Shown one piece after another: positions 10,964 through 33,133 of a DNA stretch of 48,541 nt (within the stretch, counting starts at the first letter, position 1; each line of letters opens with the position of its first letter). A program made the position numbers and the translations under genes. The notes below the pieces were generated by a model that was not told where the DNA came from, ran no database searches, and saw nothing but the letters and a program-made list of their open reading frames with translations. The DNA is from Zoogloea ramigera (lineage in GTDB: Bacteria > Pseudomonadota > Gammaproteobacteria > Burkholderiales > Rhodocyclaceae). The DNA lies in NCBI RefSeq assembly GCF_006539865.1, contig NZ_BJNV01000036.1, positions 1-48,541 of the forward strand, given 5' to 3'.

Positions 10964-13624
10964 TTACATCGGGCCGGCGTCCTTGGCGTTGGCCTCCAGG
11001 AACTTCAGGACGATGTCTTTCTCCTGGTCGTTCAGGCCGGCCCGCGGGAACATGCTCTGTGTGATGCCGTGCCACTGCTTCTTGGTGTAGTCGCCCGGCT
11101 CGCGGGGCACGTGGCACAGGGTGCAACGCTCGTAGAACAGCTTTTCACCCGGCGTCATGTTGGCCATCGTGACGCCCTTCAGCTTGGCGGCGCGCTCGAC
11201 CAGCTTCATCCCGGCCACGTTGAGGGCCAGCTTGCCGCTGCGCTCGACGGGCGGCGGGTCGTAGGCCTTGTTCTCGCCCTCGGCATCGGTGCACTTCTTG
11301 AGGCTGGCGATGCAGGTGTTGGCGCTGGTAGCCTGGCTGAGGCCGCTGGAGGCGACGCTGGTGGTGATCATGTTGATCGCCCCGCTGTTGCAGCGGCCGC
11401 GGGAGTCGAGCTGGATCCAGTTGCCCTCCTCGAGGCTGACCACGCCCTTCATGATCTGGTCGGTAACCACCGCGCCAGCGATCAGCGCGCCGCGCTCGTT
11501 GTAGAGCTCCACCAAATCGCCGCTCTTGATTCCGTTGGCAGCGGCGTCTTCGACGCTGATGCGCACATGCTGGCGGCCCTTCACGTTCTCGTACTTGCGC
11601 ACGTCGGCCTGGGCCATCTGGCTATGCACCCGGTTGAAGGGGTGCGGGCTGACCACGTGCACCTGGCCCGCCTTGGCGTTGCCGAGGTATTCGGCCGGCT
11701 CGAGGAATTTCGGGATCGGCGGGCAGTCGGGCACCTTGAAGCTGGCAATCTCGTCGCAGTACAGCTCGATCTTGCCCGACTTGGTGTGCAGCGGGCTCTT
11801 GACCGGGTCGGTGTAGAAATCACCGTGGCGCACCCACTGGCGCATCTTCTCGGGCACCTCGAGATGCACGATGCCCTTCTCCCAGAACTCGGCAAACGGC
11901 ACCTTGGTCTCGGCGTTCTTGTAGGCGTTCTCGAGGATCTGCATCACCGTCTGGCCTTCGGTGAACTGGTAGCCGACACCCATCAGCTCGCCGAGGCGGC
12001 TGAAGATCTCGAAGTCGTCGAGGCTCTCGCCGAAGGGCTGGATCACCTGGCGCATCGCGTAGATCTTGTCGTTGCTGTAGGTGCCGCCGCTGCTGATGTC
12101 GGGGCGCTCCAGCGCCGAGGTGGCCGGCAGCACGATGTCGGCAAAGCGCGACGAGGCGCACCACCACGGGTCCTGGTTGATCACCGTGTGCACCTGCTTG
12201 TTCATGGCCCGGATCAGCTCGTTGGTGTTCTGCTGGTGGGACATGAAGTTGTTGCCGGCGTTGTAGATCAGGCGCGCGTCCGGGTAAGTGTGCACCGCGC
12301 CGTCGCGGGTGTATTTCTTGCCGGGGTTCATCAGCATCTCGCTGATCCGCGAGGCCGGGCAGCGCGCCTTCACCGGGTTGCGGCCCTGGGACAGGCCGAC
12401 CGGCATGGCCTTGGTGGACTGGGGCATGCCGCCGCCGCCGTAATGCCAGCTGAAGCCGACGCCTTCGCCCGGCTTGCCGATCTTGCCCAGCATCGCCGCG
12501 AAGTTGATGATCGCCCAGTGGGTCATCTCGCCGTGGTGGGCGCGCTGCAGCGACCAGGCACCGGCAAACTGGGTGCGCTTGCTGGCAAAGAGCTCGGCCA
12601 GCTCGACGATCCTCTGCGCCGGGATGCCGGTGATCTTGGCGGCCCATTCGGGGGTCTTAGGCGGCGTGCCGTCGGCGTCCTTGCCCAGCAGGTAGGGCAG
12701 GAACTTGTCGAAGCCCACGGTGTACTTGCCCAGGTAGGCCTTGTCGTACTTGCCCGTCGTATAGACGTGGTAGGCCATCGCCAGGAACAGCGCGGTGTCG
12801 GTGTTGGGGATGATCTTCACCCATTCCGAGCCCAGCGCGTTGTCGGTGGGCGTGTATTGCGGGTTGATCGAGATGAACTTGACGCCGCGCTCCTTGATCT
12901 GCTTCCAGCGCGGGAACATCTGGTGGTCAGCCACCGTGTATTCGATTCGGTTGTTCTTCCACGGGTCGCAGCCGATCCACACCACCACCTCGGTATGCTC
13001 GGCGATCACCTCCCAGGCGGTCTGGGGCGAATACACCTCCATGTCGCCGATGATGTGGGGCAGGCTGATCTGCGAGGCGCCGCCCGAATAGTCGCCGGTG
13101 GTCACCGAATGGCCGCCGATCAGGCCGAACAGGCGCCCCTGCAGCACCTGCGGGCGCAGCAGGCCGGCGTGGGACCAGCCGCCGTAGCTCGAGCTGAAAA
13201 GGGCCTCGTTGCCGTTCTTCTCGGCGGTGGTGAGGATGGCGTTGGCGGTGAGGGCCAGGATCTCCTCCCAGGTCACCCGCACAAACGGCTCCTTGCCGCG
13301 CAGATGGGGCTTGGTGTCGCCCATCGGGTTGGCCAGGTAGGACTTGCGGACCATCGGGTACTTCACGCGGCTCTTGTGATAGACGCGGCTGATCAGGCCC
13401 TCGGTGAGCATCTTGGTGGGCATCGCATCGATGCCGGGCAGCGGCTGCATGCCCACCAGCACGCCCTTCTTGACCACCGCCTTGAACGGCCCCCAGTGGC
13501 TCGCGCTGGGGATCACCACCGTGTCGGCACCGAACACCTCGCTCGCGCCGAACCAGCTGAGGCTGCCCGCAGCAACGCTGGTGGCAACGGACGCCTTCAG
13601 AAACTCTCTTCTCGAAACAGCCAT
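10964..13624 (-). CDS. torA: TorA-type molybdoenzyme (TMAO/DMSO reductase family) with C-terminal cytochrome c domain
   Basis: 886 residues. It starts with a Tat signal (S-R-R-E-F-L-K at residues 4-10), so it is folded with molybdenum cofactor before export to the periplasm. The enzyme body belongs to the TorA/DorA/BisC family: SYGGW at 146-150, and Ser180 in TTGDYSGG is the expected Mo ligand. The protein reduces trimethylamine N-oxide or a related N-/S-oxide. After the usual end of the family there is an extra ~60-residue module with CTLCH at about 834-838 and a Met in SMFPRAG, a haem c domain that probably receives electrons directly. The start at 13624 has GGGAG upstream; an ATG 33 bp further upstream is an alternative. 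No torD chaperone or torC quinol dehydrogenase is visible in the window. Confidence 0.9.
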   Translation of the reverse strand: MAVSRREFLKASVATSVAAGSLSWFGASEVFGADTVVIPSASHWGPFKAVVKKGVLVGMQPLPGIDAMPTKMLTEGLISRVYHKSRVKYPMVRKSYLANPMGDTKPHLRGKEPFVRVTWEEILALTANAILTTAEKNGNEALFSSSYGGWSHAGLLRPQVLQGRLFGLIGGHSVTTGDYSGGASQISLPHIIGDMEVYSPQTAWEVIAEHTEVVVWIGCDPWKNNRIEYTVADHQMFPRWKQIKERGVKFISINPQYTPTDNALGSEWVKIIPNTDTALFLAMAYHVYTTGKYDKAYLGKYTVGFDKFLPYLLGKDADGTPPKTPEWAAKITGIPAQRIVELAELFASKRTQFAGAWSLQRAHHGEMTHWAIINFAAMLGKIGKPGEGVGFSWHYGGGGMPQSTKAMPVGLSQGRNPVKARCPASRISEMLMNPGKKYTRDGAVHTYPDARLIYNAGNNFMSHQQNTNELIRAMNKQVHTVINQDPWWCASSRFADIVLPATSALERPDISSGGTYSNDKIYAMRQVIQPFGESLDDFEIFSRLGELMGVGYQFTEGQTVMQILENAYKNAETKVPFAEFWEKGIVHLEVPEKMRQWVRHGDFYTDPVKSPLHTKSGKIELYCDEIASFKVPDCPPIPKFLEPAEYLGNAKAGQVHVVSPHPFNRVHSQMAQADVRKYENVKGRQHVRISVEDAAANGIKSGDLVELYNERGALIAGAVVTDQIMKGVVSLEEGNWIQLDSRGRCNSGAINMITTSVASSGLSQATSANTCIASLKKCTDAEGENKAYDPPPVERSGKLALNVAGMKLVERAAKLKGVTMANMTPGEKLFYERCTLCHVPREPGDYTKKQWHGITQSMFPRAGLNDQEKDIVLKFLEANAKDAGPM

Positions 13625-13690
13625 GACCGCATCTCCCGTAAAGATCGGCTTCGCCATGAAGCCTTCCACGGAGACAAGCTTAGCCACCGG

Positions 13691-13700
13691 CGATGAACAG
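13691..13700 (-). promoter_or_regulatory. Candidate TorR box upstream of torA
   Basis: On the minus strand it reads CTGTTCATCG, matching 8 of 10 bases of the E. coli tor box CTGTTCATAT, and lies 67 bp upstream of the torA start. Confidence 0.45.
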
Positions 13701-13735
13701 TTCGGCACGGTTTCGTAAGCCTGGGCCGCCTTTGT

Positions 13736-13751
13736 GTTAACCGACGTTAAC
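13736..13751. repeat. Paired GTTAAC sites one helical turn apart
   Basis: GTTAAC occurs at 13736-13741 and again at 13746-13751, a 10-bp phase. Both are palindromes in the torA-torF intergenic region. They may be the operator of a second regulator. The rest of 13625-13974 is GC-rich and non-coding. Confidence 0.3.
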
Positions 13752-13885
13752 AGGCCCGCCAACAACCACCGCCGCCCACCCCCGCACGGCCCTGAATCCC
13801 GGCGCCGGCGCGGGGTACACCCACCCCTGGCGCGCCCTCGCCCCATTAACACGATGCGCCCTTGCATTCACGTTTCCGGGGACTG

Positions 13886-13895
13886 CCGTTCATAC
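13886..13895 (+). promoter_or_regulatory. Candidate TorR box upstream of torF
   Basis: CCGTTCATAC matches 8 of 10 bases of CTGTTCATAT and lies 80 bp upstream of the torF start, roughly mirroring the site in front of torA. Confidence 0.45.
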
Positions 13896-13974
13896 CGGAT
13901 CGCCATCATCCGCCCTGAAGCGATTTGCACTGACAGTTCGAATCACCGTCCATCTGACGACCAGGGAGCATCAA

Positions 13975-14724
13975 ATGAAACAGCTTTCCAGACTTGCCAT
14001 CGCCGGCATGGCCGTGGCCCTGACCCACTCCGCCATGGCCGCCGACGACGCCGAGACGCTCTTCGGCGGCACCTTCGGCGCCAACATGAAGTTCGCCACC
14101 GACTACGTCTTCCGCGGCGAATCCGAGACCAACGACGGCCAGATCCCCGCCATCCAGGGCTCGATCACCTGGAGCCACCCGAGCGGCTACTATGCCGGCT
14201 TCTTCGGCTCCACCAACAAGTTCGCCAGCGCCCCCGACATCAGCGCCGTGGTCGGCCCCTACATCGGCAAGACCGGCACCATCAGCGCCGCCGACATCGG
14301 CTACAACGTGATGGTCTTCGACTACCAGTATCCGGGCGCCAACAAGTACAACTACACCGAGCTGTACATGTACGCCTGGAAGCAGTTCGGCGACTTCAAC
14401 CTGAAGTTCGAGGTCACCCCCACCCTCAACGACTGGTTCGGCGTGGACGGCTGGAAGGGCATCAACTACGCCGTCCATCCCAAGATGGCCCTGCCCTACG
14501 GCGTCACCCTCGACGGCAGCTACGGCTACCAGCAGCTCGACGGCACCGGCGCCCAGGGCTGGCACCACTGGAACCTCGGCGTGAGCAAGAAGTTCGTCGG
14601 CCTCACCTTCGATCTGCGCTACCACGACACCGACATCACCTCCGGCCACAAGGTGTATGGCTCGCCGGCTGGCCTGAAGATCTTCGACCAACGCGTCGTG
14701 TTCGCGGTCTCGAAGAGCTTCTGA
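13975..14724 (+). CDS. torF: TorF-family putative outer-membrane porin
   Basis: 249 residues with a Sec signal peptide ending at about residue 22 (SAMA). The mature protein has alternating polar/aromatic beta strands typical of small outer-membrane barrels (YYAGFFGSTNKF, LKFEVTPTLNDWF, YHDTDITSG) and ends in Phe, as outer-membrane proteins usually do. It belongs to the TIGR02001/TorF group, often found beside tor genes in betaproteobacteria. A role in substrate entry through the outer membrane is inferred from that context. The ATG at 13975 has AGGGAG upstream. It diverges from torA across a 350-bp region with two candidate TorR boxes, and moaA follows 68 bp later. Confidence 0.85.
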   Translation: MKQLSRLAIAGMAVALTHSAMAADDAETLFGGTFGANMKFATDYVFRGESETNDGQIPAIQGSITWSHPSGYYAGFFGSTNKFASAPDISAVVGPYIGKTGTISAADIGYNVMVFDYQYPGANKYNYTELYMYAWKQFGDFNLKFEVTPTLNDWFGVDGWKGINYAVHPKMALPYGVTLDGSYGYQQLDGTGAQGWHHWNLGVSKKFVGLTFDLRYHDTDITSGHKVYGSPAGLKIFDQRVVFAVSKSF

Positions 14725-14743
14725 GCGCCCGCCGACTTTCCAC

Positions 14744-14776
14744 CCCGGCCCGAGGCGCAGCGCCCCGGGCCCTTTG
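14744..14776 (+). terminator. Imperfect GC hairpin between torF and moaA
   Basis: GGCCCGAGGCGC can pair imperfectly with GCGCCCCGGGCC, followed by CTTT. It is probably a partial terminator that lets some transcription pass into moaA. Confidence 0.4.
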
Positions 14777-14792
14777 ACCAGACGAGGACGCG

Positions 14793-15764
14793 ATGCTCAT
14801 CGACGGTTCAGGCAGACACATCAGCTATCTCCGGCTGTCCGTCACCGACCGCTGCGACCTGCGCTGCACCTACTGCATGCCCGAAGGTTTCCAGAGCGAC
14901 GACGAACCCCGCGAGTGGCTGAGCTTCGACGAGCTCGAGCGGCTCGCCGGCGTCTTTGCCCGCCAGGGCGTCGAGCACATCCGGCTGACCGGCGGCGAGC
15001 CCCTGCTGCGCCGCAACCTGCCCGAGCTCGCCGCGCGCCTGGCCGCGGTGCCGGGCATCCGCGACCTGTCCCTGTCCACCAACGGCACCCGGCTCGCCGA
15101 GTTCGCCGGCGAGCTGCGGCGCGCCGGCGTGGCGCGGCTCAACGTGAGCCTGGATTCCCTAGACCGCAACCGCGTGGCGCAGATCGCCCGACGCGACGTG
15201 CTGCCGCAGATCCTCGACGGGCTGGAAGCAGCCCGCGGGCTGGGCTTCAGGCAGATCAAGATCAACATGGTCGCGCTGCCCGACACCTCCCACGACGAGA
15301 TCGAGGCAATGACCGAATACTGCATCGCGCGGGGCTTCATCCTGCGCCTGATCGAGACCATGCCGGTCGGCCAGTCCGGCCAGAACGCCGGCTTCATCGA
15401 CCTGCGGCCGGTGATGCAGCGCATGCGCGAACAGTTCGGCCTCATCGACGGCGTGGTGCCCGGCGGCGGGCCGGCGCGCTACCTGGTGTCGCCGGACCGC
15501 AAGTTCAAGATCGGCTTCATCACCGCGATCTCGCAGCACTTCTGCGACACCTGCAACCGCATCCGGCTGGCCGCCAACGGCACCCTGCACCTGTGCCTCG
15601 GCCGCGACGAGGCGGTGGATTTCCGCCAGCTGATGCGCAGCGGCCACAGCGACACCGAGATCCTCGCCGCGCTGCAGGCCGGCCTCGCCCACAAGCCCGC
15701 CCGCCACGACTTCGGCAACACGCAGCACCGCCTCATCCGCATGATGTCCGCCACCGGGGGCTGA
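14793..15764 (+). CDS. moaA: GTP 3',8-cyclase (molybdenum cofactor biosynthesis protein A)
   Basis: 323 residues. A radical-SAM enzyme: the N-terminal cluster motif CDLRCTYCMP binds [4Fe-4S] and SAM. A second C-terminal cluster is provided by FCDTCNRIR and the later Cys in LHLCL. The protein ends in Gly-Gly, which is essential in MoaA. With MoaC it turns GTP into cyclic pyranopterin monophosphate, the first step of molybdopterin synthesis. GAGGA precedes the ATG. Its position inside the tor locus, with moaD on the other side, suggests dedicated cofactor supply when TorA is induced. Confidence 0.95.
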   Translation: MLIDGSGRHISYLRLSVTDRCDLRCTYCMPEGFQSDDEPREWLSFDELERLAGVFARQGVEHIRLTGGEPLLRRNLPELAARLAAVPGIRDLSLSTNGTRLAEFAGELRRAGVARLNVSLDSLDRNRVAQIARRDVLPQILDGLEAARGLGFRQIKINMVALPDTSHDEIEAMTEYCIARGFILRLIETMPVGQSGQNAGFIDLRPVMQRMREQFGLIDGVVPGGGPARYLVSPDRKFKIGFITAISQHFCDTCNRIRLAANGTLHLCLGRDEAVDFRQLMRSGHSDTEILAALQAGLAHKPARHDFGNTQHRLIRMMSATGG

Positions 15765-15809
15765 ACGCCCCGCCACCGCAACCAACCCTCTCAGGCAAGG
15801 AATCAAAAA

Positions 15810-15983
15810 ATGGGCAGTTTTTCAGTTTGGCACTGGCTGATCGTGCTGGTGATCGTGATGCTGGTCTTCGGCACCAAGAAGCTGCGCAACATGGGCGAAG
15901 ACCTGGGCGGCGCCGTCAAGGGCTTCCGGGACGGCATGAAGGAGGCCGAGGCCACCGCCCAGCTCGACAAACCGGGCAGCTGA
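15810..15983 (+). CDS. tatA: Twin-arginine translocase TatA/TatE subunit
   Basis: 57 residues. A short periplasmic start is followed by one membrane helix ([15 protein letters not shown]), the [20 protein letters not shown] hinge and amphipathic helix that define TatA, and a short charged tail. It forms the Tat export pore. AAGGA lies upstream of the ATG. It is shorter than most housekeeping TatA proteins, nearer to TatE. Encoded between moaA and torT, it is probably expressed with the Tat-exported TorA. It converges with torT, with only 18 bp between stops. Confidence 0.92.
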
Positions 15984-16001
15984 GCGCCGGCCCCGCGCAG
16001 C

Positions 16002-17048
16002 TCAGCGCGGCGGGTAGCGGAACTGGGGCGTGAAGGTGGGCGGCGGCATCGACTCATCGAGGTCGAGGTGGGGCAGGCTGCGGCGGTCCACCAGCCGGAT
16101 CACCGGCCCCATGTGCCGCGCGTAGCGCCGCCCTTCCAGCAGCTCCACCGCCTGATCCACCGACAGCCGCCCCTGCAGCACCGGCGAATCGGTGGGCGCA
16201 GCCATGATCTTGCCGCGCACGATGCCCCGATAGACACCCGGCGTGAAGTAGGTGGACAGCACCCCGATGTCGCCCGCCCGACCGCCCGGCCCGCCCTCTG
16301 GCTGGCGCCCCCGCAGCACCCCTACCGCCGCCTCGGCCATCATCGCGTTACCCACCAGGTAGCGCACCTCGGGGTGGGCATCGAGGGCCTCCTGGACGAG
16401 GTCGCGCTGCACCGTCTTGTCCGTGTCGCCCCAGCCGGTGCTGACGATGGCGATCGGGCTGTCGCGGATCGCGTCGCGGAAGCCCTTGTCCACAAACGGC
16501 ACCCAGCCGGCGTCCCGCGGCCCGGGGAACCAGGCGATCGGCACCCTGGCCTGGCCCGGGTGGGGCAGCCCGGCCAGATACTCGCCGACCTGCCGCCCCA
16601 TGTCGTACCACGACACTCCCACCTTGGCGGCGAGGCCCGCGTCAGCGATGTCGTTGACGGTGGCCAGCACCGGCTTCTTGCGGCTCACGTCGCGCAGCAG
16701 ATCCGACAGCCCGTCGAAGGACACCGTGCCCAGGATCATCGCATCCATGTCGGCCGCCTCGGCGCAGGCCTGGAGCAGGCTGCGCTGGCGCTCCAGGTTG
16801 GGGTAGCCACCGGCCTCGAGCACCTGCATGTGCACGCCGAGCCGCCGGGCCTCGTCGATCATCCCGTAGTTGACCGCCAGCCAGTAGGCGTCCTTCAGGT
16901 GGGGCACCACCACACACAGCTTCCAGGCCCGGCGGGCCTTGGCCGGCGGAGCGTAGGGCTGCCGCGTGGCGGGGCTGGCATAGGAGAACGGCGGCTCCCA
17001 GCGCAGGACTTCCGCCGCCCGGGCGAGCGGCGCCAGGGTTGAAAGCAT
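16002..17048 (-). CDS. torT: TorT periplasmic TMAO-binding protein, with truncated signal peptide
   Basis: 348 residues. A periplasmic binding protein of the TorT group: RAWKLCVVVPHLKDAYW and VLEAGGYPNLERQ align by eye with E. coli TorT. TorT binds TMAO and presents it to the sensor TorS. The only plausible start, the ATG at 17048, leaves just 11-12 residues (MLSTLAPLARAA) before the mature protein, too short for a signal peptide; E. coli TorT has 18. There is no ribosome-binding site. The bases immediately upstream are coding sequence for torS on the other strand, with 10 bp between the two frames and no room for a promoter. The 5' end is therefore missing through deletion or assembly error, and export and function are doubtful as drawn. 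Confidence 0.85.
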   Translation of the reverse strand: MLSTLAPLARAAEVLRWEPPFSYASPATRQPYAPPAKARRAWKLCVVVPHLKDAYWLAVNYGMIDEARRLGVHMQVLEAGGYPNLERQRSLLQACAEAADMDAMILGTVSFDGLSDLLRDVSRKKPVLATVNDIADAGLAAKVGVSWYDMGRQVGEYLAGLPHPGQARVPIAWFPGPRDAGWVPFVDKGFRDAIRDSPIAIVSTGWGDTDKTVQRDLVQEALDAHPEVRYLVGNAMMAEAAVGVLRGRQPEGGPGGRAGDIGVLSTYFTPGVYRGIVRGKIMAAPTDSPVLQGRLSVDQAVELLEGRRYARHMGPVIRLVDRRSLPHLDLDESMPPPTFTPQFRYPPR

Positions 17049-17058
17049 CAGCGCGCTG

Positions 17059-19779
17059 GTGGACCAGCTGCCGCGGGTCGACAGCCACCAGGAGGCCAGG
17101 CAGATCGGCAGCCTGCTCGAGGAACAGCTCGGCAACATGGCCGAGGCCCTGGCGCAGCTCGACGCCCAGGGCTTCGACCCGCAACTCGGCGCCGCGATGC
17201 GCGCGACCGTGGTGGCGATCACCGGCAACCTCCGCCAGCAGACCGCCCAAACGCTGCACCGCCTCGACACCGAGGAGGCCGAGCGCACCGCGATCATGCG
17301 CCGCCGCGAGAGCCTGATGGCCCTGGTCAGCCTGTCGGAATCCCTGGTGGCGAACGCCTCGACCACCACCACCGCCAACATCGCCAACCTCTACCGGCTG
17401 ATCGACGGCGGCAGCAAGCCACCGCGGCTCTTCGACGCCCTCGACCGCCTGATCGAGGTCGACATCGACGGCATGGAGCGGATGTCCCAGTTCCAGCTCT
17501 TGTGCTTCAAGCTGCAGACCCTGCTGGCGCAGGTCGAAGCCCAGACCAGCCCCGAAGGCGTGGCCCAGCTCAACCAGGCCTTCGCCGCCAGCCTCACGCC
17601 CCTCAAGCGGCGCATCGACGACCTGCGCGACCCCAGCCAGCGCGAGCGCAGCCTCGAACACTACCGCCACCTGGCGGGCGACGACGTCGACAACCCCTTC
17701 CGCATCCACCGCCAGCGCCTGGAGGAACAGCAGGCCCTGGGCCAGCTGCGCGCCCGGGGGCGCCAGCTGGGGGGCGAACTCAACCGGCAGGCCAGCGAGC
17801 TGGTCGGCGTCGGCAGCAAGGCCATGGGCACCGCCGGCGCCCAGGCCCGGCAGGCCGTCGACCGGGGGCTGATCATCTTCGTGGTGGTCGCCGGGCTGAT
17901 GTTCTTCACGCTGATCGTCACCGTCTGGGCGGTCTTCCGCTACCACCTGCTGGGCCGCCTGAACGGCATGGAAACCGCCGTCCGCGCCCTCAGCACCGGC
18001 GACTACGACGTCACCATCGCCACCGGCGACCAGGACCCGCTGGCCCCCCTCGGGCGGGCCCTCGAGCAGTTCCGCGAGAACGCCCGCGAGCGGCTGCGCC
18101 TCGAAGACGAGCTGCGGCGCCACCAGCAGGTGCTCGAGAGCCAGGTCGCCGAGCGCACCGCCGAACTTAAACATAGCAACGCCCTGCTCGCCCGCGAGGT
18201 GGCCGAACACGCCGTGGCCCGCCAGGTCGCCGAAGAAGCCAACAAGGCCAAGGGCGTCTTCCTCGGCACCCTCAGCCACGAGCTGCGCACCCCGCTCAGC
18301 GGCGTGCTCGGCATCGTGCGCCTGCTCCGCGAGAGCCCCCTCGACAGCCGCCAGCGCCAGTATCTCGACACGATCGGCTACGCCAACCTCACGCTGCTCG
18401 AGATCCTCGAGGACATGCTCAGCTTCTCGCGGATCGAGGCCGGCAAGCTCGACCTGCAACGCGAGCCCTTCGACCTGCGCGAAACCATCGACGACATGCT
18501 GTCGCTGCAATCGGTGCAGGCCACCGGCAAGGGCATCGCGCTCATCCGCGACGTGGCGGCCGAGGTGCCGCGGCTGGTGGTTGGCGACCGGCGCAAGCTC
18601 AACCAGCTCCTCCTCAACATCATCGGCAACGCCATCAAGTTCACCGACGAAGGCTCGGTCACCGTAAGCGTGGCGGCAGCGCCCGCCGAGGCCGGGGGCC
18701 CGGCCCGGCTCGCCTTCACGGTCTGCGACACCGGCATCGGCATCCCGGCCGACAAGGCCGCCGAGGTGTTCAAACCGTTCTTTCAGGTCGAGGACACCGC
18801 CCGCCGCCAGCACGGCGGCGCCGGCCTGGGCCTGGCGATCTGCCAGCGCCTGGTGGAGGCGATGGGCGGCGAGATCTCGCTGGAAAGCCAGCTCGGCCAG
18901 GGCACCTGCGTGCGCTTCAGCCTCGACTTCGAGATCGCCGACAGCCTGCCAGCCCCCGCCGACGACGCTGCCGCCCCATGCGCCGCGCTGCGGCCGCTGA
19001 CGGTGCTGGTCGTCGAGGACGACGAGATCAACCGCCTGGTGTGCACCCGCTATCTCGAGCTGCTGGGCCACCAGCCGCTCACCGCCGGCGACGGCACCGC
19101 AGCCCTTGAACTGCTGCAGGCCCCGGGCGCGCAGGTGGACGCGATCCTGATGGACATCAGCCTGCCGGGCCGCTCCGGCCTCGAGGTGGCCGAAGACATC
19201 CGCCAGCTCGACGGTGGCCGCTGGGCCGGCGTGCCGCTCATCGTGATGTCGGCGCATGTTTCGCCCCAGATGGCGGCCGCCGGTGCGGCAGCGGCCTCGT
19301 CGCTCTTCATGGGCAAGCCGTTCTCGCTCGACACCCTCGCCCGCAGCCTCAAGGCTGCCACCAGCCCGCTGGAAGACAGCCCCGCCGGCAACGAGCCCAC
19401 CGCCGACGCCCCCGGCCTGCTCGACCCGGTGTTTCTCGCCGCCGAAATCGACACCCTAGGCGCCGGCACCATGGCCGAGCTGCTCAAGCTGTTCTCCGAC
19501 GATCTCCCTGCGGCCTTCGACGAACTGGAAAGCGCCCGCCGCGCCCACGACTGGGCCGCCCTGGGCAAGCGCGCCCACCGCCTGCGCAGCGCCGCCTCGA
19601 ACCTGGGCATGAGCAAGGTGATGGCCACCAGCCGGGAGATCGAAACCGCCGCCAACGGTGAAACCGTGGCCAGCGAGCCCATGGCTGCCGCCCTGGAGCA
19701 GCTCATGGAGGACTGCCTCGCCAGCTGCGACGCCCTCCAGGCCCAACTCGCCGACGACGACGCTGGCGCGGGCGGCTAG
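17059..19779 (+). CDS. torS: TorS hybrid sensor histidine kinase, N-terminus missing
   Basis: 906 residues from a GTG at 17059; the frame opens after a stop at 16981-16983. Order: helical periplasmic sensor (1-270), membrane helix (271-293), HAMP, HisKA with the phospho-accepting His407 in LSHELRTPL, HATPase_c (DTGIGIP, GGAGLGLAI), receiver with Asp699 in LMDISLPG, and Hpt with His840 in KRAHRLRSAAS. This is the full TorS phosphorelay. E. coli TorS has a first membrane helix and about 65-70 more residues before the region matching LDAQGFDP. Here those are absent and the frame runs directly into the divergent torT. Without the first helix the sensor domain would not reach the periplasm. No ribosome-binding site is visible. 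The stop overlaps that of convergent torR within CTAG. Confidence 0.88.
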   Translation: MDQLPRVDSHQEARQIGSLLEEQLGNMAEALAQLDAQGFDPQLGAAMRATVVAITGNLRQQTAQTLHRLDTEEAERTAIMRRRESLMALVSLSESLVANASTTTTANIANLYRLIDGGSKPPRLFDALDRLIEVDIDGMERMSQFQLLCFKLQTLLAQVEAQTSPEGVAQLNQAFAASLTPLKRRIDDLRDPSQRERSLEHYRHLAGDDVDNPFRIHRQRLEEQQALGQLRARGRQLGGELNRQASELVGVGSKAMGTAGAQARQAVDRGLIIFVVVAGLMFFTLIVTVWAVFRYHLLGRLNGMETAVRALSTGDYDVTIATGDQDPLAPLGRALEQFRENARERLRLEDELRRHQQVLESQVAERTAELKHSNALLAREVAEHAVARQVAEEANKAKGVFLGTLSHELRTPLSGVLGIVRLLRESPLDSRQRQYLDTIGYANLTLLEILEDMLSFSRIEAGKLDLQREPFDLRETIDDMLSLQSVQATGKGIALIRDVAAEVPRLVVGDRRKLNQLLLNIIGNAIKFTDEGSVTVSVAAAPAEAGGPARLAFTVCDTGIGIPADKAAEVFKPFFQVEDTARRQHGGAGLGLAICQRLVEAMGGEISLESQLGQGTCVRFSLDFEIADSLPAPADDAAAPCAALRPLTVLVVEDDEINRLVCTRYLELLGHQPLTAGDGTAALELLQAPGAQVDAILMDISLPGRSGLEVAEDIRQLDGGRWAGVPLIVMSAHVSPQMAAAGAAAASSLFMGKPFSLDTLARSLKAATSPLEDSPAGNEPTADAPGLLDPVFLAAEIDTLGAGTMAELLKLFSDDLPAAFDELESARRAHDWAALGKRAHRLRSAASNLGMSKVMATSREIETAANGETVASEPMAAALEQLMEDCLASCDALQAQLADDDAGAGG

Positions 19780-20495
19780 CGGCCGCCGTCTCCGGCGATC
19801 AGCACGTAGCCTTCGCCGCGCACCGTGGTGATGATCTCGGGGTGCTTGGGGTCGTCCTCGAGCTTGTCGCGCAGGCGCGAGATCAACACGTCTATTGTCC
19901 GGTCGTTGGGGTCCCAGCTGCGGTGGCTCACGGTCTGCATCAGGCGTTCGCGGCTCAGCACGACGCCCGGGTGGCCGGCCAGCGCCGCCAGCAGGTCGAA
20001 CTCACCGCGGGTCAGGATCTCGCGCTTCCCGTCGCTGCCCTGCAGGCGGCGGTGGGCGATGTCGAAGGTCCAACGGCCAAAGCTGATCGTTTCGCCGCCG
20101 CCCCCCTTCGGCCCGCGCCCGCGCAGGCCACGCAGCACGATCTTCACCCGCGCCAGCAGCTCCCGCGAATTGAAGGGCTTGGTCACGTAGTCGTCGGCGC
20201 CCGACTCGAGGCCGACGATCTTGTCCACGTCGTCGCCGCGGCCACTCACCAAAATGATGCCGAGCCCCTCGTCGTGGGCGCGGAGCTCCCGCGCCAGCTC
20301 CAGCCCGTCCTTGCCGGGCAGGCCCACGTCGAGCAGCACCACCGAGATCGCCTCGCTGTCGAGAACCCGCCACATTCCACCGCCGTCATTGGCGACGAAC
20401 ACCGCGTAGCCCTCGGCCGTGAAATAAGCCTTGAGCCGCGCACAGGCCACCGGGTCGTCATCGACGACGAGAATTTCGACGGGTGTATTTTCCAC
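19776..20495 (-). CDS. torR: TorR-type OmpR-family response regulator
   Basis: 239 residues from the GTG at 20495. The receiver domain starts at ILVVDDDPVACARL, with the phospho-acceptor Asp in VLLDVGLPGKDG and the conserved Lys in YVTKPF. A winged-helix DNA-binding domain follows (LTRGEFDLLAAL, DRTIDVLISRLRDKLE, RGEGYVL). It would receive phosphate from TorS and activate torA and torF. The frame is open upstream to 20642, so a longer start cannot be excluded, but residues before the receiver are not family-like. A TATAAT at 20659-20664 on this strand could be its promoter. Confidence 0.88.
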   Translation of the reverse strand: MENTPVEILVVDDDPVACARLKAYFTAEGYAVFVANDGGGMWRVLDSEAISVVLLDVGLPGKDGLELARELRAHDEGLGIILVSGRGDDVDKIVGLESGADDYVTKPFNSRELLARVKIVLRGLRGRGPKGGGGETISFGRWTFDIAHRRLQGSDGKREILTRGEFDLLAALAGHPGVVLSRERLMQTVSHRSWDPNDRTIDVLISRLRDKLEDDPKHPEIITTVRGEGYVLIAGDGGR

Positions 20496-20827
20496 AGGCT
20501 GGATCTCGAACTTCCGGCAAGGGCCGGGATATTTGAACAGGACGATGAAACGAGGCACGGCAGCACCGCCGCCCCATGAGCCTGGAAGCCTTGCCCCACG
20601 GCTCACCCGGCGCATCAACGCACGGCGCATGTGCCGGCGCACAGGTTTCGGGCTCCGGATTATACGTCGCCGGCGCTACCGCGCAGCCGGTGCCCGCAGG
20701 CGTCGCCGCCCGCCGCGGATGTGGCCTTCATCCCGGCCACCGGGGGCCGCAGTCGTGTAGATTGGCGGGTGAATCTCACGTCATGCAGGCCGGCGCCCGG
20801 TGGCGCCCGCCCGAAAGGAAGCCGCCC
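20496..20827. other. Intergenic region between divergent torR and alpha-2-macroglobulin genes
   Basis: No gene supported. On the minus strand TATAAT at 20659-20664 could be a -10 element for torR, giving a leader of ~155 bases if the GTG at 20495 is the start. I see no convincing -35 or TorR box here. On the + strand AAGGA lies before the GTG at 20828. Confidence 0.35.
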
Positions 20828-28280: not shown

Positions 28281-28303
28281 AGCGGACAAGCGCTGCGGCG
28301 CCA

Positions 28304-28342
28304 TGTAGGGGCGACTTGTAGGGGCGACTTGTAGGGGCGACT
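28304..28342 (+). repeat. Three exact tandem copies of a 13-bp unit
   Basis: TGTAGGGGCGACT is repeated three times without change, the third copy running into a REP-like palindrome. It is probably expansion of the left part of the REP element after pbpC. Confidence 0.85.
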
Positions 28343-28413
28343 TCAGTCGCCCGCAGCTGGTCAAATGACGCCTGATCCTTCATTCAAGCTCCGCGGGCGA
28401 CTGAAGTCGCCCC
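28334..28413. repeat. Pair of inverted REP-like palindromic elements
   Basis: The same 21-bp sequence, beginning GGGGCGACT and ending AGTCGCCCGC, occurs at 28334-28354 (+) and 28393-28413 (-). Each copy is itself a hairpin with an 8-bp stem. The layout resembles a BIME made of two REPs. Similar GTAGGnGCGnCTTCAGnCGC elements are common in beta- and gammaproteobacteria and are mobilised by RAYT transposases; none is present here. Confidence 0.75.
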
Positions 28414-28428
28414 CACAGCACAAAAACA

Positions 28429-28459
28429 AAAAGGCCCGGGCTTTCGCGCGGACCTTTTG
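28429..28459 (-). terminator. Terminator downstream of tRNA-Tyr
   Basis: On the minus strand AAAAGGTCC pairs with GGGCCTTTT (one G-U pair) and is followed by further T residues. Confidence 0.65.
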
Positions 28460-28471
28460 GCTTGTGCTGGA

Positions 28472-28556
28472 TGGTGGAGGGAGAAGGATTCGAACCTTCG
28501 AAGGCAGTGCCGTCAGATTTACAGTCTGATCCCTTTGACCGCTCGGGAATCCCTCC
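28472..28556 (-). tRNA. tRNA-Tyr (anticodon GTA)
   Basis: 85 bases including an encoded CCA. The acceptor stem GGAGGGA/TCCCTCC, anticodon loop CTGTAAA, a long variable arm typical of bacterial tRNA-Tyr, and GGTTCGAATCC in the T arm can be read on the minus strand. Confidence 0.96.
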
Positions 28557-28618
28557 ACGGGACACAGGGCGCGGATTATATACGGGCCGGCGAGTTAGTC
28601 AAGCACCTGCGGCATCCC

Positions 28619-28948
28619 GCACAAACACCCCGACGCGTGGCGCAATCGCCGAGGAAACCCGCGCAAGCGTCGCGACGGGTGGCGCAATCATCGAGGAGTC
28701 CCGCGCAATCGCTGCGGAGACCCGCGCGATTTTCCAGCCAACCCGAGCAATTTTCCAGCCAACCCGCGCAAACGCCGAGGGGCATGGCGCAATCACCGGG
28801 GAGAACGTCGCATGGGTTGGAAGACCTGGCGCAGGGGTCAGGAGAGATCTCCCGAACTTCAAGGCGTGTCGCCGGAAATGTGCGGAGAGTCTCCTATGGC
28901 CTGCGCCAGGTGGATGAAGAATTGCGTGGGTTGACTGGAAAATCGCGC
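28619..28948. repeat. Head-to-head array of degenerate 21-bp repeats
   Basis: From 28619, eleven consecutive units of exactly 21 bp begin with GCGCAA or a close variant (starts at 28619, 28640, 28661 and so on to 28829); the consensus is about GCGCAATCnCCGAGGAnACCC. From 28948 leftward the same unit appears on the minus strand (28928-28948, 28907-28927, 28886-28906 and a weaker one at 28865-28885). The 25 bases 28720-28744 and 28928-28952 are inverted copies with one mismatch. Open frames across it are a by-product of the 3n period and overlap the tRNA, so I do not call a gene. Function unknown; a protein-binding array or a folded single-strand structure are possibilities. Confidence 0.85.
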
Positions 28949-28952
28949 GGGT

Positions 28953-29614
28953 GCACGGAATCGTCGGGGGAGTCGGAGAGAGAAAATAAAATAATACAAA
29001 ACAGCCACTTACAAGAACGAGCAGCCTAACACCCGCCGGCAACCCAGCTTTCAAGCGCGTCACACGCCCGGAGACGCAAAACCATCCACCACGGCGGGGG
29101 GCTGGCGCCAGCGTGCGGCCATCCAGACGACGTCCCACAGCGGGCCGGACTCGTCCCGGTGGGTTTGGCGCTGACAGCCTGACAGGCGGCGGCCCCCCGC
29201 GAAGGGATGTGTCAGTGCTCGATGTGGCGGCTTGTCGGCCTTTGCGGACGCTCATGGTTCGTACTGAATCAGTCAGCAGTGCATCAGTTACCTGACGCTC
29301 AGATGTCCGAATCACCCAGCTCCGACCACCAGTACCCGACCCTTGCTGACTTATAACAAATGGCAGTCTGATCGCGAAACTTCGGTGAAATCAGTCGGCG
29401 CGCCGCCTTGGCGCTACTAGCGCTACCAACCCACCAAGTGCAATGCCGTGACCTTGGCGTTGCCGCATGGCGGCACTCCCTATCTGCGCCAGAGCACACA
29501 AGGCGCAGACACAACCGTCCATCCTGATAGTATGTACACCTATTGGGCCTAATGGCCCCGTCAATGCGTTAAGCATGATCAGCTTGCAGCGTGGTGTTCC
29601 TTCATGAAGGAGAG
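28953..29614. other. Non-coding junction before the low-GC block
   Basis: No credible gene. GC content drops along this stretch towards the accessory genes. It contains a small palindrome GGGCC-TAAT-GGCCC near 29545-29560 and AT-rich patches (around 29340-29350 and 29525-29545) that could hold a promoter for the next gene. No integrase, transposase or clear direct repeat is visible. Confidence 0.4.
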
Positions 29615-30868
29615 ATGGTCTTGGAAATAGTCATTGTTAGCTTGGCGTGCTTAGCGCTCGGGATCGGTCTGACTGTCGTATGGATGAAGATCCGTGCGAG
29701 AAGCGCTGGTACAACGCCCCATGATGAGCATCCGGAAGCTCCCTCGGCCGACGGCGTGGCGCCAGTAAAAGTAGTTGTTGCCAATGGTGATCAGGAAGTG
29801 ATGTCGATGACCAAACTGGACGACTCGGATCCAAACATGGAACTGCTGCGTAATGCGACCAGATTGCCTCAGCATGTAGTATCTGGAGTACTCAAGTCCC
29901 TCGTAGAGCCGCTCATGCAGGTAGCGCCCTCAGTAGTCACTGCTGTAGCGACCCACAGCAAGCAACTGATGGAAGTAGTGATCAACGGCCAGATGCTTGC
30001 AGCAACTGACGGTAACGGCCTTCGCGCAATTGCCAAGGCAGGCAAGGGATTTGAGCACGCGCGCCTTTACGAACCAAGCAACTTACAGAATATTGCCAAT
30101 GCCGCTGCCATCTGGCAACTCGCTTCCGTTGTTGTTGCTCAGAAGCACTTGGCCGACATTAGCGCAACGCTGAAACGCGTTGAATCCAAAGTGGACAGCA
30201 TTCAGAGCTTCCTAGAAGAAGAGCGTCTCGCAGTGATCAAAAGCGCAATCAATTATCTCGAAGTGGCGAGAAAAGCCGTCGAAAATGGCGAGTTTCTTGA
30301 GCGTACAAGGGCTGAATTGGAGCGCTTCGACATCGAGCTTGATCGCGCAAGCATGTCACTCGTCGAACAGGCAAAACGCGAGTCAAGAATTGAACTTGAA
30401 CGTGACTCTGTCGGTTGTGAAGGCGAATACACAAGTGCGCTTGCCAAGCACAAACGCCTTAGCCGTTTAGGCGAGGAGTTGATACTTTGCAATGAGGCAC
30501 GACTGGCAAACTGGTATCTTTGCTCAATTTACCATGATAGCAGCAAGACACTTGAGCCTCGCCTCGAGCAGATCAAGAAGAGCATCAAGGAGATAAGTTC
30601 GTTACAAGATAGATTGTCGAAGTCGGTAAAGGACGATTGCGAGTTGATCAGCGCAACATTCACCCTCGGTAGCACCATCAATGAAAGGCGCTCTGATGTG
30701 AAGTCGGCTGCCAAGGTTGGAAAACATGCGCTCCAAGATGGCCTTCGCCGTAGCGAAGAGATCGTAGTAAAACTTGAGACAGTCAGCGCCGACCGCCAAG
30801 CGATCAACCGTCTCGTTATCGAGACGACGAACGGGGTTCCGTCCGCGGCGTACCTGTGTCAAAAGTAG
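29615..30868 (+). CDS. Unrecognised membrane-anchored coiled-coil protein
   Basis: About 417 residues. A single N-terminal membrane helix (residues ~3-24) is followed by a polar linker. The segment around residues 80-185 (HVVSGVLKSLVEPL, then IWQLASVVVAQKHL) looks folded and helical. From ~180 to 400 there are long charged helices (KRVESKVDSIQSFLEEER, KKSIKEISSLQDRLSKSVK), probably coiled coil facing the cytosol. AAGGAG lies two bases from the ATG at 29615; a TTG at 29621 would have better spacing, and a GTG at 29591 is open too. Codon use is clearly less GC-biased than the surrounding chromosome, suggesting acquisition. I do not recognise the family. It is followed by a TIR gene and may be part of a defence cluster (inference). 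Confidence 0.7.
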   Translation: MVLEIVIVSLACLALGIGLTVVWMKIRARSAGTTPHDEHPEAPSADGVAPVKVVVANGDQEVMSMTKLDDSDPNMELLRNATRLPQHVVSGVLKSLVEPLMQVAPSVVTAVATHSKQLMEVVINGQMLAATDGNGLRAIAKAGKGFEHARLYEPSNLQNIANAAAIWQLASVVVAQKHLADISATLKRVESKVDSIQSFLEEERLAVIKSAINYLEVARKAVENGEFLERTRAELERFDIELDRASMSLVEQAKRESRIELERDSVGCEGEYTSALAKHKRLSRLGEELILCNEARLANWYLCSIYHDSSKTLEPRLEQIKKSIKEISSLQDRLSKSVKDDCELISATFTLGSTINERRSDVKSAAKVGKHALQDGLRRSEEIVVKLETVSADRQAINRLVIETTNGVPSAAYLCQK

Positions 30869-30961
30869 CGTGCCTCGGCATTGATCGCCGAATGTTATTC
30901 GCAGCTTTTCTTTTGATAAAACCTGACAGTCTTACCGATGCTTATGTTGAGAACAATATCT

Positions 30962-31034
30962 AAGATGGCGTTCAACCTCGCTCTCATTGGTCGCTCGATG
31001 CTGAAATATAAAGCCGCGCAACGCCGGCCATCTT
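30962..31034. repeat. Imperfect inverted repeat upstream of the TIR gene
   Basis: AAGATGG-CGTT at 30962-30972 pairs with AACG-CCGG-CCATCTT at 31020-31034, leaving CCGG bulged and a ~47-base loop. It lies 19 bp before the TIR start codon and could be a regulatory hairpin or the scar of an insertion. Confidence 0.5.
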
Positions 31035-31052
31035 GAAATAGGCGAAATTTCT

Positions 31053-32024
31053 ATGACACCCACCGATCGCAAGAAGGTCGCTGTGATTGCCAAGTACGCT
31101 GTAGAGTCATTTTCGGAAAGCGACTGGTATAGCCTGGGACAAATCACAGGTAACTTAAAAGCTGTAACTGATCACCCCCGTCTTCTACGTGCATTGAGTT
31201 TTGGTGACGATGACTACGAGAGTTGCGCAATACAAGTAATTGATGAAGTATTCAATTCGGACAGTTCAAGTATCGCCGAGATAATTGAATACTTTGATAT
31301 AGATCTTTGGTATTCAAATAAGGCTCCAGAAAAGCACAAAAGAATATTTTTGTCACCCCCAACAACAGTCGCAGATTTCTGGGGAGATGGTTTTGTCAAA
31401 GCATTCATAAGCCACCTCTCTTCAAATCGCGCACGCATGTCTGCGTTAAAGTCTAATCTTTCTAACTGGGGGATATCAGCATTTGTTGCCCATGAGGATA
31501 TTGAAGCATCTAGAGAGTGGCGCGAGGAAGTTGAGGCGGGCCTTGAAACAATGGAAGTTCTAATTGCCGTTGTAGAGCCAGGATTCAAAGAGTCTGATTG
31601 GTGCGCCCAAGAAGTTGGCTATGCGTTAGGAAGAAGAGTAGACATTATTCCGTTGCGTGCGGGCATGGATCCCTTTGGATTTTTTGGAAAGTACCAGGGC
31701 CTTCAAATCAAAGGCAAGCAGCCAAAGGCTGTTGCGGATGAAATTGTTCAAACCCTGCTGAAGAAGCCAGCACATAGAGAAAAATTACTACAGAGCATGT
31801 CGAAAGCTCTAGCCGGCCTCTCGTCTGATAAAAAAATTGACCAAATTCGGCTTTTTGAATCGTGGTCAATAGCAACAGACGCGCAAATTAAAGAAATACT
31901 TGAGCGCTCATCTTTGTCTGAGTTCGAGAAGAAAAACCTTAGAAGCACAATCGATAAAGTTGGCGCATTCACGTCATCAAGCCAGCGGGCAATAGCAGAC
32001 GATCTCGACAGCATTCCATTTTGA
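31053..32024 (+). CDS. TIR-domain protein with novel N-terminal domain (putative NAD+-cleaving defence effector)
   Basis: 323 residues. A TIR domain spans about 113-240: KAFISHLSSNR, AFVAHEDI, then SDWCAQEVGYAL with Glu187 in the position of the NADase catalytic Glu of bacterial TIRs. Bacterial TIR enzymes cleave NAD+ or make cyclic ADP-ribose signals during phage infection. The first ~105 residues (SDWYSLGQITG, DDDYESCAIQVIDEVF, EIIEYFDIDLWY) form a helical domain I do not recognise; this may sense or oligomerise. The C-terminal ~80 residues are charged helices. Base composition is markedly AT-rich against the neighbours. No Thoeris ThsA or other standard partner is adjacent. Function in defence is inferred from the family. 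Confidence 0.82.
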   Translation: MTPTDRKKVAVIAKYAVESFSESDWYSLGQITGNLKAVTDHPRLLRALSFGDDDYESCAIQVIDEVFNSDSSSIAEIIEYFDIDLWYSNKAPEKHKRIFLSPPTTVADFWGDGFVKAFISHLSSNRARMSALKSNLSNWGISAFVAHEDIEASREWREEVEAGLETMEVLIAVVEPGFKESDWCAQEVGYALGRRVDIIPLRAGMDPFGFFGKYQGLQIKGKQPKAVADEIVQTLLKKPAHREKLLQSMSKALAGLSSDKKIDQIRLFESWSIATDAQIKEILERSSLSEFEKKNLRSTIDKVGAFTSSSQRAIADDLDSIPF

Positions 32025-32053
32025 GCCACATTCGGCTAACAATTCCATCGAAA

Positions 32054-32074
32054 GGAACCCACAATTTGGGTTCC
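32054..32074. terminator. Hairpin downstream of the TIR gene
   Basis: A perfect 8-bp stem GGAACCCA / TGGGTTCC with loop CAATT, 29 bp after the TIR stop, followed by CTTCTC. It is probably a weak terminator separating the TIR gene from the next gene. Confidence 0.55.
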
Positions 32075-32122
32075 CTTCTCGACTTCACTGCTATGGTGCG
32101 ACCATATTAAATTTTTTACGTC

Positions 32123-32635
32123 ATGACCAAGCTCACTCCGCCCACACCGGACTACGATGATCCAAAGGAGATTTATGCCTTCTTTGGGTTGGCTTTCTAC
32201 AAAGCCAATGTACTTGAGCATGGCGTACTGAATCTTGCAGTTGCCTTGTTGATTCAGGGAAATCTTGGGATTAGCGCTGCCGATGTAATCCAACTATATG
32301 AGTCATTCGACGAGAAGACCTTTGGACAGGTCGTCAAGGTTACTAAGCGGTGGCATTCATTTCCAGACGCTTTTGTTGCAGATCTTAATCTTGCTCTGAA
32401 ATACAGAAATCACCTCGCTCATCACTTCTTCAGGGAGCACGACATCAATCACATGTCTCCCGCGGGCCGAAAGAAAATGATCGACGAGCTGATCGACATA
32501 TGGATCCACCTTGCCAAGGTAGATCAAGTGATGGATGAATACTGGTTGTCCGCTTGGGAGTCTCATGGCGTCACGAAGGAATGGATTGACAAGCAAATTG
32601 AAGCGGATGTCCAAGCGATGCCCCGTAGCGTATAA
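32123..32635 (+). CDS. HEPN-like small protein
   Basis: 170 residues, all-helical by eye. KYRNHLAHHFF contains R95-N96-x3-H100, which fits the RX4-6H motif (with polar second residue) of HEPN ribonucleases. The segment FGLAFYKANVLEHGVLNLAVALL forms a hydrophobic helix as in HEPN bundles. HEPN proteins act as RNA-cleaving toxins or defence effectors, but RN...H motifs also occur in non-enzymatic relatives, so activity is a guess. There is no ribosome-binding site before the ATG and an AT-rich patch sits just upstream, so it may be leaderless. It has its own flanking hairpins and lower-GC codon use, like the TIR gene. Confidence 0.6.
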   Translation: MTKLTPPTPDYDDPKEIYAFFGLAFYKANVLEHGVLNLAVALLIQGNLGISAADVIQLYESFDEKTFGQVVKVTKRWHSFPDAFVADLNLALKYRNHLAHHFFREHDINHMSPAGRKKMIDELIDIWIHLAKVDQVMDEYWLSAWESHGVTKEWIDKQIEADVQAMPRSV

Positions 32636-32660
32636 GACTTCAGTTGGGACGACCTCAACG

Positions 32661-32705
32661 AAAAGTCACGCACAGCGCTCACTTCGACGCTGAGCACTGA
32701 CTTTT
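32661..32705 (+). terminator. Extended inverted repeat after the HEPN-like gene
   Basis: AAAAGTCA (32661-32668) and TGACTTTT (32698-32705) flank an inner CAGCG / CGCTG pair. The T-rich end suits a rho-independent terminator on the + strand, and the symmetry would allow use on both strands. Confidence 0.6.
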
Positions 32706-32943
32706 CTCAGTCGAGGCAGACCGCTATGGATCGGTAGTACGTACTCGCCGGAATGGGACGCTGTCGCTCATGGCAGTTTGCGATTAAGAGGCAGGTAACC
32801 GGCGCATTGCCGACCTACACAGGCTTCCGCTCGAACGACCGCTCCGGCCGAGCTGCCGTCATTGGTTCCACGGGCCGCGAGTCGGCCGCAGCCAATCGCT
32901 TCATCCTGGACAAACCACACCCGCCCAACGGAGCGCACAAAGC
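32706..32943. other. Non-coding right border of the accessory segment
   Basis: GC content returns to the chromosomal level. A 78-codon open frame at 32753-32989 runs into the terminator of tRNA-Ala and has no ribosome-binding site, so I do not call it. No mobile-element signature seen. Confidence 0.4.
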
Positions 32944-32982
32944 AAAACAGCCTGTCACGCTCAAAGCGCAACAGGCTGTTTT
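32944..32982 (-). terminator. Terminator downstream of tRNA-Ala
   Basis: A 12-bp perfect stem AAAACAGCCTGT / ACAGGCTGTTTT with a small inner GCG/CGC stem; the T-rich arm lies 3' on either strand. Confidence 0.75.
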
Positions 32983-32994
32983 GTACTGAATGAG

Positions 32995-33070
<76 letters not shown>

Positions 33071-33133
33071 ACGTAAGCCGCGCATTATAACGATGCTTCC
33101 TGCCGCTGAAAAGCCCCCCTTGCAGCTTGAAGC

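Follow-up and report, generated by a model that had tools for sequence, protein, structure and literature searches.

Both 5' ends missing from a divergent torT-torS pair at one junction, probably through a deletion, in a Zoogloea ramigera TMAO respiration cluster

We have found that the divergent torT and torS genes of a Zoogloea ramigera TMAO respiration cluster both lack their 5' ends at one junction. The cluster lies in the window (the whole 48,541-nucleotide stretch of DNA that was analysed) and is recognizable from the gene order in the window and in relatives, with torT and torS divergent and torR and torA near (Table 1). By comparison with relatives, the window lacks the beginning of torT with most of its signal peptide, the control region between the genes and the TorS N-terminus. 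We consider it probable that a recent real deletion occurred in the sequenced strain; the missing stretch is evident against relatives, and its loss within the cell is what we infer from the sequence. A single event of roughly 350-460 bp would have taken the torT start, the shared control region and the torS start together.

Table 1. Features of the TMAO respiration cluster in window coordinates
Feature	Coordinates	Strand	Evidence and remarks
torA-like TMAO/S-oxide reductase	10964..13624	-	frame intact; bisC family 829.7 bits (cut-off 1017.55), TorA NF011682 637.3 bits (cut-off 909)
TorF-family porin	13975-14724		
moaA	14793-15764		
tatA	15810-15983		
torT, TMAO-binding periplasmic protein, 5'-truncated, 348 aa	16002..17048	-	NF008185, TIGR02955, PDB TorT 3o1h_B E 6e-67
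putative deletion joint	17037..17058	.	both genes aligned to relatives (by eye); contains palindrome
torS, hybrid sensor kinase, 5'-truncated, 906 aa	17059..19779	+	TIGR02956, Pfam domains
torR, response regulator, frame intact	19776..20558	-	best NCBIfam match TorR NF008034, 252.3 bits (cut-off 275)

For TorR and TorA the expected families are the best or near-best matches, both falling under those curated cut-offs, and the real start of torR is probably downstream of 20558. The torA-like protein is 89% identical over 879-886 residues to counterparts in three family genomes. At loci L047 and L132-L136 torA adjoins torT directly and convergently, whereas a TorF-family gene, moaA and tatA intervene in the window, indicating that the cluster is rearranged here (10964-17048). 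The torA-like protein also carries a C-terminal extension (10964-11130) with a CxxCH motif, presumably of the haem-c type; no Pfam model matches the extension, and L132-L136 and L047 align through it. Elsewhere, a low G+C stretch at 28281-33133 (0.474 at 30001-32000) stands out within the 67% G+C window. The product of 31053-32024 combines an AbiJ N-terminal domain with a TIR domain, its PADLOC match is weak, and the stretch may be a small defence island.

We compared 87 non-window loci (L036-L124 minus two from the window's own genome), 74 with matches to both torT and torS and 13 with no torS match. The DNA between homologous points in torT and torS is 253-687 bp longer than in the window in every one of the 74 comparable relatives, the six closest having 344, 345, 435, 447, 454 and 463 bp extra. 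The initial annotation had proposed that both genes lost their 5' ends at one junction through a single deletion covering the torT start, the intergenic region and the torS start. The comparison bears out the first part and fits the second, DNA being found there in all 74. Among 22 further genomes of the genus, torT has no relative above 36% identity (six have one that is 32-36% identical), and the TorS sensor domain occurs in 8 of 199 family genomes, the window's included. Given this rarity in genus and family, there is no near relative able to vouch for the joint.

The torT product passes the curated cut-offs of both its families (NF008185, 377.7 bits against 200; TIGR02955, 315.3 against 310), with the NF008185 match starting only at model position 12. 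The final usable start ahead of the mature protein is an ATG at 17048 on the minus strand, which leaves MLSTLAPLARA before the mature part, in agreement with the earlier count of only about 11 signal-peptide residues. The frame is open to 17387, but all earlier starts in it run backwards through torS. Compared with seven relatives, whose starts were picked by eye, the protein is short by about 15-24 residues. The residues that remain do not make up an export signal: the first eight hold no K or R, and the best 10-residue hydrophobicity is 0.94, against 2.2-2.82 in the seven relatives, as judged on a hydrophobicity scale.

The truncation of torS is larger. Its best NCBIfam match is TIGR02956 (TorS), at 626 bits (cut-off 676.5), which covers model positions 65-961 of 967 and leaves positions 1-64 unmatched. 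The Pfam TorS sensor domain (PF21689) is matched from position 24 of 275, at 118.7 bits against a cut-off of 27. The frame opens at 16984 and its first ATG, GTG or TTG is the GTG at 17059. The sensor domain, HAMP, HisKA, HATPase, receiver and Hpt all remain, the last four exceeding their Pfam cut-offs. The N-terminal loss amounts to at least 67 residues, including the first membrane helix, and to 74 by comparison with L037 and L038; the annotation's view that torS starts within its sensor domain, without the first helix and some 65-70 residues, therefore stands. Two helices should bracket the periplasmic sensor domain; the sole helix in the window protein is the second, near residue 271. In the alignment to the Vibrio TorS sensor structure (3o1h), residue 26 of the structure pairs with residue 4 of the window protein, so that the first sensor helix is also incomplete.

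Relatives sharing this start and lacking a first helix would have spoken for an ordinary alternative start. A hydrophobic N-terminal segment, absent in the window, is present in 71 of the 72 relatives whose torS frame can be read (72 of the 85 loci given); in the remaining one, L083, the upstream frame is broken. An ordinary start common to relatives is ruled out by this and by the longer junctions of the relatives. The L083 locus belongs to Roseovarius mucosus DSM 17069; its best match to torS begins only at residue 290, possibly marking another damaged torS or a draft error.

Only 10 bp separate the two frames, as first noted, and this whole spacing between the start codons is a perfect 10-bp palindrome, CAGCGCGCTG (17049-17058). 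Sequence resembling torS extends slightly beyond the GTG on its upstream side, as far as about 17044 (by eye; window SISAL VDQLPR, L045 SRISAW VEQLPR), which places the break at about 17037-17046. The initial annotation reported neither a promoter nor a ribosome-binding site for either gene. We see by eye no Shine-Dalgarno-like sequence at normal spacing before the torT or the torS start, and the second part of the claim holds on both sides. The promoter part is weakly tested, since a sigma-70 scan that found 0 promoters was also expected to find 0.0 in shuffled sequence.

These features bear on the reading that the truncation is real and the short proteins are functional, TorT being made from an upstream start in the torS complement and TorS acting as a one-helix kinase. 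Both frames are intact and conserved, and reading of torT from an ATG at 17138 would add a stretch of weak hydrophobicity, with a Kyte-Doolittle value of 1.76 compared with 2.2-2.82 in the seven relatives. However, neither start is preceded by a Shine-Dalgarno-like sequence, relatives keep the first helix almost without exception, and a Vibrio fluvialis TorS from which the first membrane segment had been removed (residues 35-958) was unable to regulate torA under pressure, according to the available text of PMC10662104, whose authors do not show the data. We regard this reading as very unlikely. Also very unlikely is a selected truncation, in which a one-helix TorS facing the cytosol would sense a signal other than periplasmic TMAO-TorT and drive TorR, the cluster having been rewired by a single deletion.

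What remains of both genes is well preserved. Across columns conserved in at least 95% of the other proteins, TorS keeps 100 of 102 and TorT 80 of 81, which is ordinary for relatives: counted from the lowest, TorS ranks 18 of 73 and TorT 35 of 84. Identity to the outgroup L047 is 46.9% for TorS (44.3-49.6% in five intact relatives) and 60.4% for TorT (56.8-59.7%). The remaining frames contain no stops. With uniform changes, about 87 stops are expected per change per site, and drift beyond roughly 0.035 changes per site should leave one. Old pseudogenes are ruled out by the kept conserved positions and the normal outgroup identity. The lack of decay implies a loss that is either recent or occurred outside the cell.

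The latter would be the case if the piece had been dropped through a single mistake in assembly, gap closing or the library, the cell having a normal torT-torS pair. We hold this to be possible, though we doubt it. The source assembly is a draft of 207 contigs, and perfect preservation of the genes is equally expected from an assembly error; both count against a real deletion. The stated completeness of 100 and contamination of 0.02 speak against an error. The joint itself, being nearly palindromic, could have hampered sequencing together with an adjacent 15-nt inverted repeat (93%; 17024-17038/17147-17161), the first arm of which ends at the estimated break; such a repeat is common, however, an equally good one occurring in 46 of 1069 windows of equal size. 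Palindromes of at least 10 bp occur at 0.0018 per position in a sample of the same genome, from which we estimate that chance alone would put one no more than about 20 positions from the joint in approximately 4% of cases. The DNA at the joint folds no better than shuffled sequence (z 0.92), and a hairpin or the inverted repeat as the cause of the joint is suggestive at most. There is no long direct repeat near the joint, where 14 nt at 86% is the best to be found within 401 bp. This too argues against an error, if weakly, as a repeat lost together with the deleted piece would be invisible.

An assembly error might also have placed the absent part of TorS elsewhere among the contigs. A profile built from eight TorS N-termini (A1) gave a best match of E 0.04 across the genome's own 207 contigs, equal to the background level in other genomes. 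The same profile recovered the true piece in three control genomes of the family outside the profile at 7.1e-29, 2.7e-26 and 1.2e-25 (of these G081, at least, is close to a profile member) and scored 7.0e-34 on G209, which is itself in the profile. Three of four distant genomes gave 1.9e-9 to 5.0e-6 and the fourth, G241, just 0.02; the G241 locus (L066) has no torS match. The absent part was thus not found on any other contig of the assembly.

The annotation had left the choice between real loss and assembly collapse undecided. We surveyed divergent gene pairs in the window and 20 other stretches of its genome (435,439 bases), with a codon-based gene finder of our own making, for which homology-supported window genes, torT and torS included, served as seeds. 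Of the 40 pairs, torT/torS alone is spaced by no more than 40 bp (5% quantile, 77 bp). In G006, from the same genus (20 stretches, 400,000 bases), the smallest gap among 37 divergent pairs is 40 bp. Systematic collapse of divergent promoters during assembly is thus rejected for this sample, and the assembly side of the alternative is weakened by the 39 other pairs that look uncollapsed. Because none of the other divergent pairs sampled appears collapsed and the joint is not surrounded by a long repeat, we lean on balance towards real loss.

The same junction was examined in E. coli, where torT and torS are 82 bp apart in K-12. Of 5426 E. coli genomes, 5365 are matched by a 701-bp junction query, and in 5168 the query is at least 80% covered; the matches occupy 5561 places in 5366 records. 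Most incomplete junctions seem to be divided into two parts, as an insert would cause (among three incomplete rows, two had two places), which agrees with the prophages situated just upstream of torS in roughly 5% of E. coli genomes according to the part of PMC6814406 available. Junction loss by means other than a split seems rare in E. coli, and this counts against a real deletion in the window. In NZ_CM169481.1 (H60) only the torS half of the junction is matched, at one place, and torT may be lost from that genome. In view of PMC6814406, the joint could conceivably also be what an imprecise prophage excision left behind at an HK022-like site. Among the titles listed by our literature search, none describes a torT-torS deletion of this kind, which is no proof of its absence from print.

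If the deletion is real, the likeliest consequence is that torA can no longer be induced by TMAO, although we infer every step beyond the missing DNA. TorT could no longer be exported, and TorS, if produced at all, would be unable to place its sensor domain in the periplasm. By analogy with work in E. coli and Vibrio, TorR would be left unphosphorylated in response to TMAO and torA would stay at its uninduced level. The annotation spoke of torA without its normal control; the loss is better described as one of inducibility by TMAO, since in Vibrio fluvialis deletion of torS or torR abolished TMAO induction of torA, as stated in the accessible part of PMC10662104. Such a locus would be a natural knock-out of TMAO sensing with intact torA and torR frames, useful for probing torA without its sensor. 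If instead the assembly is in error, readers of the TMAO annotation of this genome would wrongly take it for a loss.

The locus represents a damaged version of an established system, TMAO sensing of this type being already well known. TorT-TorS-TorR systems in E. coli, Vibrio, Rhodoferax, Roseovarius and others share with the window the divergent torT and torS, the adjacent torR, the closeness of torA and the order of the remaining TorS domains; all 74 comparable relatives, in contrast to the window, keep both 5' ends and the region between them. Two further cases, taken from the portions of their sources available, come close. An HK022-type prophage inserted between torS and torT in E. coli replaces the torS promoter and leaves both proteins complete (PMC6814406). 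The same intergenic region is altered as in the window, and a change in TMAO control is expected, but the prophage is a gain that keeps the proteins whole, whereas the window has lost sequence and retains 10 bp between the frames. The V. fluvialis TorS 35-958 (PMC10662104) lacks the first membrane helix, as does the window TorS; it was engineered and concerns the pressure response only, whereas the window additionally lacks the torT start and the control region.
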